A stretch of DNA of 64,000 bases from an uncultured Pelagibacteraceae bacterium (lineage in GTDB: Bacteria > Pseudomonadota > Alphaproteobacteria > Pelagibacterales > Pelagibacteraceae), in the NCBI GenBank assembly GCA_902587315.1, contig CACIKW010000001.1, forward strand, positions 155,844 to 219,843, read 5' to 3'. A program made the translations under genes and the position numbers. Positions within the stretch are counted from its first letter, which is position 1. Every line of letters begins with the position of its first letter. Positions 21,167 to 26,490 of this stretch are shown here, piece by piece. The notes under the pieces were generated by a model that worked only from the letters and a program-made list of their open reading frames with translations, did not search any database and was not told the DNA's origin.

Positions 21167-22450
21167 ATGATAAAATATATAAATTGCAACAAGAAGAACT
21201 ATTTAAATAAGCTAAAGTATTATTTATCAAAGAGATCATCAGTAGATATAAAAAAATTAAAAATTGTAGATAAAATAATTAATGACGTAAAAAAAAATGG
21301 AGATAAAGCATTAGCAAAATATGAAAAAAAATTTACTAATAATTCAGTTATAAAAGTAGATAATAATGTTATTAAAAAATTAATTAAAACTCTGAAACCA
21401 GAAGTAAAAAGAGCAATAGATTTTTCATATAATAGAATAATAAAATTTCACTCGAAACAAAAAGTCAGCAATATAATTTTTAAAGATTATCTAAAAAATC
21501 AGATTAAATATAAATATGTGCCATTAGATTCAGTCGGAATTTATGTTCCAGGTGGAAACGCAAGTTTTCCTTCAACTGTACTAATGAATGCAATACCAGC
21601 AAAAATTGCGGGTGTTAGAAGAATTGCCATGATTAATCCAGCAAAAAATGGGAATCAAAGCCCAGGAGTTTTGTATGCAGCAAAAAAATGTGGAATAAAA
21701 GAAATATATTCTATAGGTGGAGCACAATCTATTGCAGCTATTGCTTTTGGAACAAAAAAAATAAAAAAAGTAGATAAGATTATTGGACCAGGAAACATTT
21801 ATGTAGCCAATGCTAAGAAAAAAGTTTTTGGAGAAGTTGGTATAGATATGATTGCCGGACCTTCAGAAATAACAATAGTTGGTGATCGATATTCTAACCC
21901 AGAATGGATAGCAGCCGATCTAATTGGACAAGCTGAGCACGATACTGATTCTCAATGCATTCTGATTTCAAAAAATATTAAACTTATTTCAAGAGTTAAA
22001 AAACATATTATCGATCAATTAAATTCACTACCAAGAAAAAAAATTGCTGAAGAAAGTTTAAAAAAGAATGGTTTATTTTTGTATTCAAATTCTGATAAAA
22101 AAATTATTGAAACTATAAATTTTATTGCTCCTGAGCATTTAGAATTAAATTTAAAAAACTATAATAAAATTGGTAATAAAATAAAACATGCTGGATCGAT
22201 ATGTTTAGGAAAATATTCTGCAATGGCTATCACAGATTATAATGCAGGTAGCAACCATATTCTTCCAACTAACTCTACAGCAAAATTTTCTAGTGGTTTA
22301 TCTGTATATGATTTTTATAAAAGAATATCCCTAATTAATTTATCAAAAAAGGGTATTGAAACTATTGGTGAACAAGTTATAAACCTTGCAAACTACGAAG
22401 GTTTAGTTGGACATGCTAGATCAGTAGAAGTTAGAATAAGGAGAAAGTAA
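21167..22450 (+). CDS. hisD: Histidinol dehydrogenase
   Basis: 427 aa. Carries out the last two oxidations from histidinol to histidine with NAD and zinc. Signature segments are [41 protein letters not shown], and the zinc/base region [13 protein letters not shown] and FIAPEHLE. The adjacent DUF2948 gene abuts it, and infA follows after 2 bases. Other his genes (hisZ, hisG) are about 2.3 kb downstream in the same direction. Confidence 0.96.
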
Positions 22451-22857: not shown

Positions 22858-23067
22858 ATGAGTCTAAAAGGTAAAGTAAAATGGTTCAATGGAAAAAAAG
22901 GTTATGGTTTCATTGAGCGTGAAGATAAAGAAAAAGATGTATTCGTACATGCTTCAGCTGTAAGAGAAGCAGGTTTAAGGTTTTTAAACGAGGGTGACGA
23001 ACTTACATTTGAAGTTGAAGACGGAGAAAAAGGTCCTGCCGCAGTTAAACTGCAAAAAACCTCTTAA
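22858..23067 (+). CDS. cspA: Cold-shock domain protein
   Basis: 69 aa single cold-shock domain that binds single-stranded RNA or DNA. RNP1 is KKGYGFIER and RNP2 VFVHASAV. The N-terminal [12 protein letters not shown] is standard. An AAGGAAAG ribosome binding site precedes the ATG. The 113-base leader after tRNA-Phe contains GGGCCCC and a 17-base palindrome (AAGCTAATTATTAGCTT), which may be a regulatory hairpin. A long hairpin follows the stop codon. Confidence 0.95.
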
Positions 23068-23082
23068 TTCTAATTCAATCAT

Positions 23083-23135
23083 ATTTGTATAGGGATTTTA
23101 AAAGCTATTTTATAGCTTTTAGTTCCTATACAAAT
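23083..23135 (+). terminator. Long two-part hairpin after cspA
   Basis: An 11-base arm ATTTGTATAGG (23083-23093) pairs perfectly with CCTATACAAAT (23125-23135). Inside it AAAAGCTAT pairs with ATAGCTTTT around a 3-base loop, with a small internal bulge between the two stems. It lies 16 bases after the cspA stop. There is no clear T-run afterwards, so it could be a 3'-end stabiliser or processing site rather than a classical terminator. Confidence 0.6.
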
Positions 23136-23158
23136 CATACTTGCATTTATCCAAATAA

Positions 23159-23251
23159 ATGCTATCTAACCTTCCAATGATTACAAAGACTATACTATCT
23201 GCAAATTTACACAGACATCATTCTCATGCTGGCTGCACGCTAGCAATTTAA
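23159..23251 (+). CDS. Candidate histidine leader peptide (30 aa, not in ORF track)
   Basis: ATG at 23159 (or the internal ATG at 23177) opens an ORF ending TAA at 23249-23251. The product reads MLSNLPMITKTILSANL, then HRHHSHAGCTLAI. Four His codons occur in six consecutive codons (CAC AGA CAT CAT TCT CAT, 23210-23227). The ORF sits just upstream of tRNA-His, hisS, hisZ and hisG on the same strand, the position and composition expected of an attenuation leader such as HisL. No SD is evident, and the first ATG lies in the arm of a small hairpin (23143-23162). Confidence 0.55.
   Translation: MLSNLPMITKTILSANLHRHHSHAGCTLAI
23227..23245 (+). promoter_or_regulatory. Hairpin overlapping end of the His leader ORF
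   Basis: TGCTGGC (23227-23233) pairs with GCTAGCA (23239-23245) around loop TGCAC, seven pairs with one G-U. The left arm starts at the last His codon, so a ribosome stalled on the His codons would cover it. A second possible switch is AATGATT (23176-23182), which can pair either with ATCATT in the His codons or with AATCATT (23250-23256) after the stop. A regulatory role is inferred. Confidence 0.4.
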
Positions 23252-23304
23252 TCATTTTATAAATTTAAAATTAATAACAATTAGTATAAAACTAAAGAAA
23301 GGAC

Positions 23305-23379
23305 GCTGCCGTCGTATAATAGTTATTACTCCCGCCTGTGGAGCGGGCTATCTTGGTGCAATTCCAAGCGGCAGTACCA
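23305..23379 (+). tRNA. tRNA-His(GTG), CCA encoded, no G-1, A73
   Basis: Cloverleaf: acceptor GCTGCCG/CGGCAGT (G1-U72 wobble), D-arm GTAT/TTAC, anticodon arm CCCGC/GCGGG with loop CTGTGGA giving anticodon GTG, T-arm CTTGG/CCAAG, then A73-CCA. The base before G1 is C, so no G-1 is encoded, and the discriminator is A rather than C, the known alphaproteobacterial form. The D-loop lacks GG and the T-loop is TGCAATT (G55). hisS begins 4 bases after the CCA. Confidence 0.95.
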
Positions 23380-23383
23380 AAAA

Positions 23384-24775
23384 ATGAGCAAAGAAGAAAA
23401 AATAATACCTGGTTTACCATCAGGTTTTGAAGATCGATGGAATAATAAGTTAGCTTTAAAAAAAAAGTTAATTGAAATAGTAGAGTCTAATTTTTTGAAG
23501 TATGGATTTAGTGCTCTAGAAACGCCATCTTTTGAGATTAGCAAAAACATAGGATCATTTTTGACAGATGATGAAGTCAATCCCATGTCTGATGTATTTA
23601 CATTTAATGATGATAAAGAAAAAATTACGCTTAGATATGATTTAAGTAGTCCATTAAGTAGATTTGTAGCTCAAAACTATAGAGAACTTCCATTTCCATA
23701 TAAAAGATATGCAATAGGAAACGTATGGAGAAATGAAAAAAGTGGCAATGCAAGATATCGGGAATTTACCCAAGCAGATGTTGATATTATTGGCAATGTA
23801 AACAAGAGCCAGGCTGACGCAGAAATCTGTAATGTTATTGCTGACACATTATTAAAAGTCGGATTAAGTGAAAAACAATTTAAAATAAGCGTAAGCAACA
23901 GAAAAATAATTCAAGGGTTAATCAACAATTTAAATATCATCAACAAGCCCCAGGAAATGAAAGTAATTAGAGCAATCGATAAACTAGATAGAGTTGGATT
24001 TAAAGGAGTAGAAGATTTGCTAAAAAAAGAAAGAGTAGATGCATCTGGAGCAGTAACAAAAGGTGCAAATCTATCCGACGCACAAGCATCTGAAATTCTA
24101 AATTTTTTAAAAATCAAAAATCTTAAAGATTTAAAATCTATTCTAAAAAATTCTTTATCTGTTGATGGAATTAATGAAACTGAAAAACTTTTAGAAATTG
24201 TTAGTTATGGAAAGTATGCAAATTTAATTCAACCCAATTTTACAATAGTTCGTGGTCTTGCTTATTATGATGGGTTTTGCGTTGAAACTAATCTTAATTT
24301 TAAGGTAAAAAATCCAAAAGGAAAAGAGGTAGATATTGGAAGTATTGCCTCTGGTGGACGTTACGATAAACTGATATCAAGATTCAAAGGTTCAGATTTT
24401 CCAGGCACTGGCATGAGCATTGGAATTGACAGACTACTATTTGTTTTAGACCAGGTTGACACAATCAAACCTAAAAAAAATGAGCCAGTTCTTATTTGTA
24501 TTTTAGATAGCAAATATTTAAAAAAATACTATGAAGTTTTAGATTATCTCAGAGAAAATGGAATAAACTCTGAACTATATTTAGATGTATCAAAAAATTT
24601 AAAAAAACAATTAACCTACGCAGATAAAAAAGGTTCTCCCGCGGCTATTATCTTGGGTGAGTCTGAAATTAAAGAAAATAAATTTACTCTAAAAAACTTA
24701 CAATCTTCAAAAGAAGGTAATCAAAAAACTATTTCAAAAGAAAGTTTAATTAATGAAATCAAAAAAATTATATGA
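23384..24775 (+). CDS. hisS: Histidine-tRNA ligase
   Basis: 463 aa class II synthetase. Motif 2 reads GNVWRNEKSGNARYREFTQADVDI, histidine-binding boxes are RGLAYYDGFCVE and ASGGRYDKL, and a C-terminal anticodon-binding domain follows. The RYREFTQADVD form of motif 2 differs from the usual E. coli-type RYRQFHQ, in line with the divergent alphaproteobacterial HisRS that charges tRNA-His lacking G-1. The ATG is 4 bases after tRNA-His with no SD. The end overlaps hisZ by 23 bases. Confidence 0.95.
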   Translation: MSKEEKIIPGLPSGFEDRWNNKLALKKKLIEIVESNFLKYGFSALETPSFEISKNIGSFLTDDEVNPMSDVFTFNDDKEKITLRYDLSSPLSRFVAQNYRELPFPYKRYAIGNVWRNEKSGNARYREFTQADVDIIGNVNKSQADAEICNVIADTLLKVGLSEKQFKISVSNRKIIQGLINNLNIINKPQEMKVIRAIDKLDRVGFKGVEDLLKKERVDASGAVTKGANLSDAQASEILNFLKIKNLKDLKSILKNSLSVDGINETEKLLEIVSYGKYANLIQPNFTIVRGLAYYDGFCVETNLNFKVKNPKGKEVDIGSIASGGRYDKLISRFKGSDFPGTGMSIGIDRLLFVLDQVDTIKPKKNEPVLICILDSKYLKKYYEVLDYLRENGINSELYLDVSKNLKKQLTYADKKGSPAAIILGESEIKENKFTLKNLQSSKEGNQKTISKESLINEIKKII

Positions 24776-25808
24776 AAAAATCCTTAGTTCAATTAAATCT
24801 AGAGGATTTAATAATATTATATTGAATCCAGTACTTGAGACCAAATATATTCTTCAAAGATCTGGTGAAAATTTTAAAAAATTCTTATTTTCATTTTATG
24901 ACTTAAATGGAAAAGAGCTTTGTTTAAGACCAGATTTAACTATATCTTCAGTAATTAGATTTATACAAAATAAAAAAGATATTAGAGAAAAAGTTTTTTA
25001 TAGTGGCGAAGCATTTAGAAAAACTTATCAAAAAAAAGATAGCATAATAAAAAATCAAATTGGTTATGAAATTTTAGGATCTAAAAATAAACAACAAGAT
25101 GACAAAGAGATTATCGACACATCTTTAAAAATCTTAAAAAACAGTGGTTTTAAAAAGTCAGTTTTAAAAATTGGCAATGTTGAATTGTTTAATTTGTTAA
25201 TAGATAAATTAGACATACCAATAAGATGGAAAAATAGGCTTAAGAAATATTATTGGAATGAAAATTATTTTAATGAACTATTAAAAAGATTAGAAACAAA
25301 TTCAGACATAGATCCAATATTTGTTGATACGGATAAATCAAGGTATCAAAAAATGAGAAGCAAAAACCAAAACAAAATTATTGCTGGCAGAACCTACAAA
25401 GAAGTATTGGATAGGTTTAATATGAAGATTAAAGATCCAAGGAAATCTTCAACCGGTAAAAAAAATACAAATATTATAAAAAAATTTTTAAAAATAAAAT
25501 GTCCTTTAAAATATGCACCACAAGTTTTAAATGAATTTTTTAAAAAAAATAAAATTAATATAATAGTTGGACGAGGTTATTTTCCATTAAATAAAAATAA
25601 TAATAAAAAGTTAAAAATACAATTCTCAGCTGCCAATGGCAGAGAAGTTGAATTTTATAGTTCAATGATTTTTTCTGTTGAAGTTAAAATAAAATCAAAA
25701 TTTAAGAATTTTATATCTGGAGGAAGATATGATCAACTAACTAACAATTTAGGTTTTAAAAAAATTCCTGCGGTAGGAGCAGCAGTAAATATGAATCTTT
25801 ATGACTAA
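24753..25808 (+). CDS. hisZ: ATP phosphoribosyltransferase regulatory subunit
   Basis: 351 aa HisRS-like protein without aminoacylation function. It has class II core segments (ELCLRPDLTISSVIRF; YSGEAFRKTYQKK; SGGRYDQLTNNLG) but lacks the HisRS anticodon domain. HisZ forms an octamer with short-form HisG and confers histidine feedback. The short HisG directly downstream (8-base overlap) supports this. Being directly after hisS, the two paralogues are coupled. Confidence 0.92.
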   Translation: MKSKKLYEKILSSIKSRGFNNIILNPVLETKYILQRSGENFKKFLFSFYDLNGKELCLRPDLTISSVIRFIQNKKDIREKVFYSGEAFRKTYQKKDSIIKNQIGYEILGSKNKQQDDKEIIDTSLKILKNSGFKKSVLKIGNVELFNLLIDKLDIPIRWKNRLKKYYWNENYFNELLKRLETNSDIDPIFVDTDKSRYQKMRSKNQNKIIAGRTYKEVLDRFNMKIKDPRKSSTGKKNTNIIKKFLKIKCPLKYAPQVLNEFFKKNKINIIVGRGYFPLNKNNNKKLKIQFSAANGREVEFYSSMIFSVEVKIKSKFKNFISGGRYDQLTNNLGFKKIPAVGAAVNMNLYD

Positions 25809-26490
25809 AATTATTATTAATATAGGACTTCCATCTAAGGGAAGGTTAAAACATGACACAATTAATATATTTAGAAAAAATAATCTTAATATTTATTCCG
25901 AAAGAGGGGAAAGAGATTTATTTGGGTATATTAAAAAACTTCCCAATATTAAAATAATTTATTTACATGCTAGAGAAATAATTGAACAAATTTCATTGGG
26001 AAATATTGATGTTGGTTTTTCAGGCTACGATTTATTTAAAGAGAACGAAGTCAGCATACAGAATAAAATTCTAATTAATAAAAAGTATAATTATGGTAAT
26101 GCAAATTTAGTACTTGCAATCCCCGATTTATGGATAGACGTTCAAACTTTATTAGATTTAGATGAAGTAGCAGATGAATTTAAAAAAAAGAAAAAAAGAC
26201 TTTTAAGAGTTGCAACAAAATATCCCAATTTAACAAGACAATTTTTATATTCAAAAGGTGTTACCCAATTTCAATTAGTTAAAAGTTTGGGGAGTACAGA
26301 AGTAGCTCCATTTACTGGCATGGCAGAAATTATATCGGATATAACTAGTACTGGAGCAACATTAAAAGCTAACAATTTAAGAGTACTAAAAGATGGTGAA
26401 ATTTTAAAATCACAAGCCTGTTTAATGATATCAAAACTTTCTTTAAAAAAAGTTGGAATTAAAAAGATTATAAACTTGCTTAGAAGATAA
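25801..26490 (+). CDS. hisG: ATP phosphoribosyltransferase, short form
   Basis: 229 aa, the short HisG lacking the C-terminal regulatory domain. Catalyses the first step of histidine synthesis. Landmarks are GLPSKGRLKHDT at the N-terminus and the PRPP-binding APFTGMAEIISDITSTGATLKANNL. It requires HisZ, which precedes it. With hisS and hisZ it makes a histidine-dedicated unit behind the candidate leader peptide. Confidence 0.95.
   Translation: MTKIIINIGLPSKGRLKHDTINIFRKNNLNIYSERGERDLFGYIKKLPNIKIIYLHAREIIEQISLGNIDVGFSGYDLFKENEVSIQNKILINKKYNYGNANLVLAIPDLWIDVQTLLDLDEVADEFKKKKKRLLRVATKYPNLTRQFLYSKGVTQFQLVKSLGSTEVAPFTGMAEIISDITSTGATLKANNLRVLKDGEILKSQACLMISKLSLKKVGIKKIINLLRR

Follow-up and report, generated by a model that had tools for sequence, protein, structure and literature searches.

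A conserved histidine-codon leader ahead of tRNA-His, hisS, hisZ and hisG in SAR11 bacteria, and its predicted role as an attenuator

The his operon of enteric bacteria is preceded by the attenuator hisL (Rfam family His_leader), in which a short ORF with clustered His codons is followed by a hairpin and which responds to charged tRNA-His, a layout and an expected response that recur in the SAR11 locus described here (PMC10989985, PMC9413887). The Escherichia coli hisL peptide has seven His in a row, its RNA adopts alternative structures and it controls hisGDCBHAFI, whereas the SAR11 leader as a rule carries two to four His codons, has yielded no antiterminator, probably starts leaderless and precedes tRNA-His, hisS, hisZ and hisG. 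A similar arrangement is predicted in bacilli, where a His-codon leader peptide would control hisZ and hisS*, a paralogue of histidyl-tRNA synthetase (HisRS); those bacteria belong to another phylum than the alphaproteobacterial SAR11, and no tRNA has been described in their unit (PMC2965389). Among alphaproteobacteria, Sinorhizobium meliloti trpL offers a leaderless precedent, its RNA 5′ end coinciding with the leader ATG, and its small RNA and peptide work in trans (PMC7298713). Unlike the SAR11 leader, trpL senses Trp, uses terminator and antiterminator alternatives and has no tRNA or synthetase gene in its unit. A survey of candidate structured RNAs in Pelagibacter ubique reported cis-regulatory RNA in intergenic regions of the same organism group, and its table mentions neither histidine nor hisS (PMC2704228); intergenic regions containing tRNA or rRNA genes were removed from that table, so the gap between cspA and tRNA-His would have been left off it. 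The open-access literature on leader peptides, hisS, SAR11 and tRNA genes yielded no description of a unit under His attenuation that includes a tRNA-His gene, and Rfam covariance models run on our window returned only the tRNA family above threshold, with no match to His_leader or T-box. The unusual parts of the SAR11 locus are the tRNA inside the proposed regulated unit and the probable leaderless start; the attenuator type itself is already known.

The window is a 64,000-nucleotide stretch within contig 1 of an uncultured Pelagibacteraceae genome (859 kb in 38 contigs), whose gene content and relatives agree with the SAR11/Pelagibacter group. The following genes lie in this order, all on the + strand, with the leader between the cold-shock gene and tRNA-His:

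21167-22450, + strand: hisD
22453, + strand: IF-1 gene
22670, + strand: tRNA-Phe
22858-23067, + strand: cold-shock gene
23305-23379, + strand: tRNA-His, GTG anticodon
23384-24775, + strand: hisS, histidyl-tRNA synthetase, its ATG 4 nt 3′ of the tRNA CCA
24753-25808, + strand: hisZ, HisRS-like regulatory subunit
25801-26490, + strand: hisG, ATP phosphoribosyltransferase

An earlier reading of the sequence alone had placed tRNA-His, hisS, hisZ and hisG downstream on the same strand, and all four are present as claimed; the genes behind the leader are those of His charging and the first pathway genes. A long stem-loop (23083-23135, ATTTGTATAGG...CCTATACAAAT) lies 3′ of the cold-shock gene and has no clear U-tract behind it.

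The leader ORF and its promoter

The leader region begins with the following features:

23141-23168, + strand: predicted leader promoter with -35 TTGCAT (23141-23146), a 16-nt spacer and -10 TATCTA (23163-23168); the TTG-to-ATG distance is conserved
23177-23251, + strand: leader peptide ORF, MITKTILSANLHRHHSHAGCTLAI followed by the stop codon, conserved in relatives and probably translated from a leaderless transcript
23210-23227, + strand: control codons H-R-H-H-S-H, the last His codon (23225-23227) adjoining the hairpin

The sequence-only reading proposed a His-rich leader peptide encoded by 23159-23251. An ORF is listed there, encoding MLSNLPMITKTILSANLHRHHSHAGCTLAI and containing H-R-H-H-S-H at 23210-23227, so the frame and its His cluster stand, but the start does not: the one kept in relatives is an internal ATG (23177), and we rejected the upstream start at 23159 as non-conserved and located within the spacer of the predicted promoter. 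Comparison of hisS upstream regions across the window's order uncovered a short His-rich ORF at all 148 loci that could be read, comprising 111 loci of the same genus, 14 of other genera of the family and 23 of a sister family. The ORF with its clustered His codons is thus universal in the family and extends beyond it; a lack of conservation in close relatives, which the sequence-only reading had named as a refutation of its proposal, did not show up. In each of 20 other alphaproteobacteria, the roughly 0.8 kb upstream of hisS contained neither an ORF of this kind nor a tRNA.

Within the genus the peptides fall into three types: class A, ..THRHHFHAG(CTLAI); class B, ..STHRNCFHSQ/L; and class C, ..STLRxALRGTNRGVHAHFHAG. 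In the family's other genera the peptide takes forms like STHRHHFHAEHLLGQ and STLRSHSHRMHARLLLSL, and sister-family leaders include MFKFKHHHYHI and MIVFTHHHIHI. At conserved His positions the amino acid is kept while CAT and CAC vary synonymously and other changes are rare; class C codon -4, for example, is CAC in 17 loci, CAT in 10 and CAA in 1, and the His at -2 is CAT in 23 and CAC in 5. Because the ORF occurs in all 148 loci and shows this synonymous variation, the comparison indicates that the His-rich leader is real and did not arise by chance. Residues other than His also recur in the control region, with Arg at codon -4 in 46 of 51 class A and 22 of 31 class B leaders, and Phe at codon -1 in 34 of 51 class A, 23 of 31 class B and 22 of 28 class C leaders, a degree of conservation that exceeds the needs of His counting. 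The HRHH-type pattern occurs once in the window's own genome when up to one mismatch is allowed; a looser His pattern gave many scattered matches across six genomes. A search of phage records gave no match.

The leader ATG of the window lies 36 nt after the TTG of TTGCAT, and 140 of 148 loci have a TTG 34-36 nt upstream of their leader ATG (120 of the 122 loci kept by a filter requiring TTG at 32-38 nt, and all 20 loci added later). Six of 128 loci failed this filter: L088, plus five loci from two genera in which the TTG-to-ATG distance is about 7 nt longer; in L137 a hand count places the TTG 42 nt from the ATG. Given normal promoter spacing, a distance of 34-36 nt suggests that the leader mRNA is probably leaderless, starting at or next to the AUG.

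Pairings in the leader RNA

The paired elements of the leader are as follows:

23227-23245, + strand: hairpin P2, TGCTGGC-TGCAC-GCTAGCA, the presumed attenuator, with predicted fold and covariation
23176-23183, + strand: 5′ arm of helix P1, AATGATTA, which includes the start codon
23249-23256, + strand: 3′ arm of helix P1, TAATCATT, directly behind P2

The hairpin that the sequence-only reading had marked at 23227-23245 was borne out, being a predicted fold (z -2.3 for 41 nt) that is conserved and covarying. Double changes convert GCTGGC/GCTAGC into GCAAGC/GCTTGC, and further pairs are GTTCGCTGA/TCAGCGGGC and GTTTGTTAG/CTAACAAAC. Across the whole family, P2 arms pair better with their own partners than with swapped ones (-9.8 vs -6.6 kcal/mol, 50 distinct pairs; 0 of 5,000 permutations), as do sister-family arms (-11.7 vs -8.9; 0 of 5,000), permutation figures that are supportive and not exact, since arms were picked by best fit and relatedness is still in the data. 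In 111 of 122 loci the last His codon meets the base of the P2 stem, at an offset of -2 to 0; sister-family hairpins start directly 3′ of the leader stop codon. Most class A ORFs, that of the window included, read through P2.

The sequence behind P2 varies. Among 122 loci, the 9 nt after the stem contain six T in 47, five in 28, four in 21 and three or fewer in 26; class B has a T-rich tail (5-6 of 9) adjoining the stem, many class A and C loci are weak, and the sister family has a C-rich stretch and no T-rich tail directly after the stem. A terminator scan called no intrinsic terminator at the leader and hairpin site. Sister-family loci L151-L154 and L205-L223 share a conserved ACCCC(C)T motif between hairpin and hisS, which could be Rho-related. 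The DnaA-box consensus TTATNCACA occurs 3′ of the hairpin in 14 of 118 loci, L093-L103 among them; a role for DnaA has been proposed in E. coli his attenuation (PMC10989985).

Two alternative pairings had also been suggested as the switch. That of AATGATTA with TAATCATT, our P1, held in class A, where own arms were preferred over swapped ones (0 of 5,000 permutations), and weakly in class B (33 of 5,000); we rejected it in class C, where own arms did no better than swapped. With shorter arms the corresponding counts were 24, 123 and 1,423 of 3,000 permutations for classes A, B and C. Pairing of AATGATT with the His-codon region found no support, own partners being no better than swapped ones. 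P1 does not overlap the P2 arms; it may extend the terminator hairpin or shut off the start of the leader. Comparison of leader-region pairings across loci uncovered no mutually exclusive antiterminator; a mechanism based on masking by the ribosome could do without one.

A tRNA gene behind the leader

In the window's family, 117 of 118 loci have the tRNA-His anticodon loop GTGGA 3′ of the hairpin, and among 113 loci hisS starts 4 nt (79 loci) or 5 nt (19 loci) past the tRNA-His CCA; with such spacing, processing of the tRNA 3′ end would release a hisS mRNA that is almost leaderless. The copy behind the leader is the sole tRNA-His in G082, a near-complete genome; ARAGORN overlooked it, and we read its anticodon from the sequence. 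Across L001-L110, all from one genus, the tRNA-His genes behind the leader are strikingly diverse: they comprise 32 distinct sequences, some of them likewise overlooked by ARAGORN, and their median pairwise identity is 0.66, against 0.79 among the tRNA-Phe genes from those loci.

The sister family has no tRNA between leader and hisS; in its genome G202, tRNA-His directly follows tRNA-Phe about 1.4 kb upstream of hisS. Because this family has the leader and hisS with no tRNA between them, an older hisS leader probably existed first and tRNA-His came to lie behind it later. The alternative history is a unit that once included the tRNA and lost it in the sister family.

One further element separates the hairpin from the tRNA:

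23264-23290, + strand: bipartite AT-rich block, TTTAAA (23264-23269), N15, TATAAA (23285-23290), conserved and a candidate internal tRNA-His promoter

Within the family the TTTAAA-N15-TATAAA block hardly varies; its TATAAA half stands about 16-20 nt upstream of the tRNA, and the block could be a second promoter. In class A, TTTATA and TATAAA before the tRNA are able to pair.

Proposed attenuation and its alternatives

The conserved ORF, its His codons and the covarying hairpin at the last His codon, together with the fixed spacing between them, the promoter spacing and the synteny established by comparison, support ribosome-mediated attenuation sensing charged tRNA-His, as the sequence-only reading had suggested. 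We put at roughly 0.72 the probability that such a His attenuator controls tRNA-His, hisS, hisZ and hisG. From the arrangement we infer that the ribosome stalls and transcription terminates, which way the response runs, and that the tRNA is made mainly from the leader transcript. RNA polymerase would begin no more than about 2 nt from the 23177 ATG, with a ribosome following. With little charged tRNA-His available, the ribosome would stall at the last His codons. A ribosome with a late His codon in its A site covers about the next 9-10 nt, a reach that would take in all of the P2 5′ arm; the hairpin would then fail to form and transcription would continue into tRNA-His, hisS, hisZ and hisG. 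The fixed contact of the last His codon with the stem base fits this simple masking. With ample charged tRNA-His, the ribosome would finish and depart, P2, perhaps extended by P1, would form, and most transcription would end before tRNA-His. In class A, where the ORF continues through P2, a trailing ribosome could block the hairpin in His-replete cells and weaken or even reverse the response. More tentatively, at somewhat under even odds, the circuit would be a closed loop in which a leaderless peptide reads charged tRNA-His and switches the cell's only tRNA-His along with its synthetase and HisG, while excision of the tRNA leaves an almost leaderless hisS mRNA and so ties tRNA maturation to synthetase translation.

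Termination at P2 is the weaker step of this mechanism, because T counts after the stem are often low and the terminator scan was empty. The same leader and the same sensing could instead act through Rho access or through RNA processing or stability, with a hairpin that is no intrinsic terminator. The poor U-tracts of many class A and C loci, the ACCCC in place of a U-tract right behind the sister-family hairpin and the lack of a terminator-like site in the scan all point that way; the T-rich tails adjoining the class B stem argue against it, and a leader placed before a tRNA favours control of transcription, leaving this reading improbable. A larger claim on our belief, albeit still an unlikely one, belongs to tandem promoters, by which tRNA-His and hisS would be made mainly from the internal promoter at 23264-23290, the attenuated transcript would only add to this supply and the tRNA would not really be under His control. 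The near invariance of TTTAAA-N15-TATAAA and its position before the tRNA favour this view, but the block has no TTG -35 like those of the leader promoter and several tRNA genes in the genome, its spacer is 15 nt, and a structural or processing role could account for it equally well. Such a promoter is compatible with an attenuator acting on the upstream transcript.

The conserved Arg at -4 and Phe at -1 would also suit an arrest peptide that responds, inside the ribosome tunnel, to free histidine or some other ligand and does not count codons. We regard this as very unlikely: sister-family peptides such as MFKFKHHHYHI share only the His run, and some leaders keep as few as two His while other residues have changed. 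From a single genome one might suspect that the intergenic ORF arose by chance or has no function, since 30-codon ORFs are common in the region, but order-wide conservation, synonymous variation and the covarying hairpin refute this view.

SAR11 bacteria, which rank among the most abundant cells in the ocean, are thought to be poor in transcription factors. If the preferred reading, a ribosome-mediated His attenuator, is true, they would possess a compact, protein-free amino-acid sensor, and one whose output, unusually, includes the sensed tRNA, so that tRNA supply joins the feedback. The family with leader and hisS and the family with leader, tRNA-His and hisS would then form a before-and-after pair for studying how such a circuit grows.
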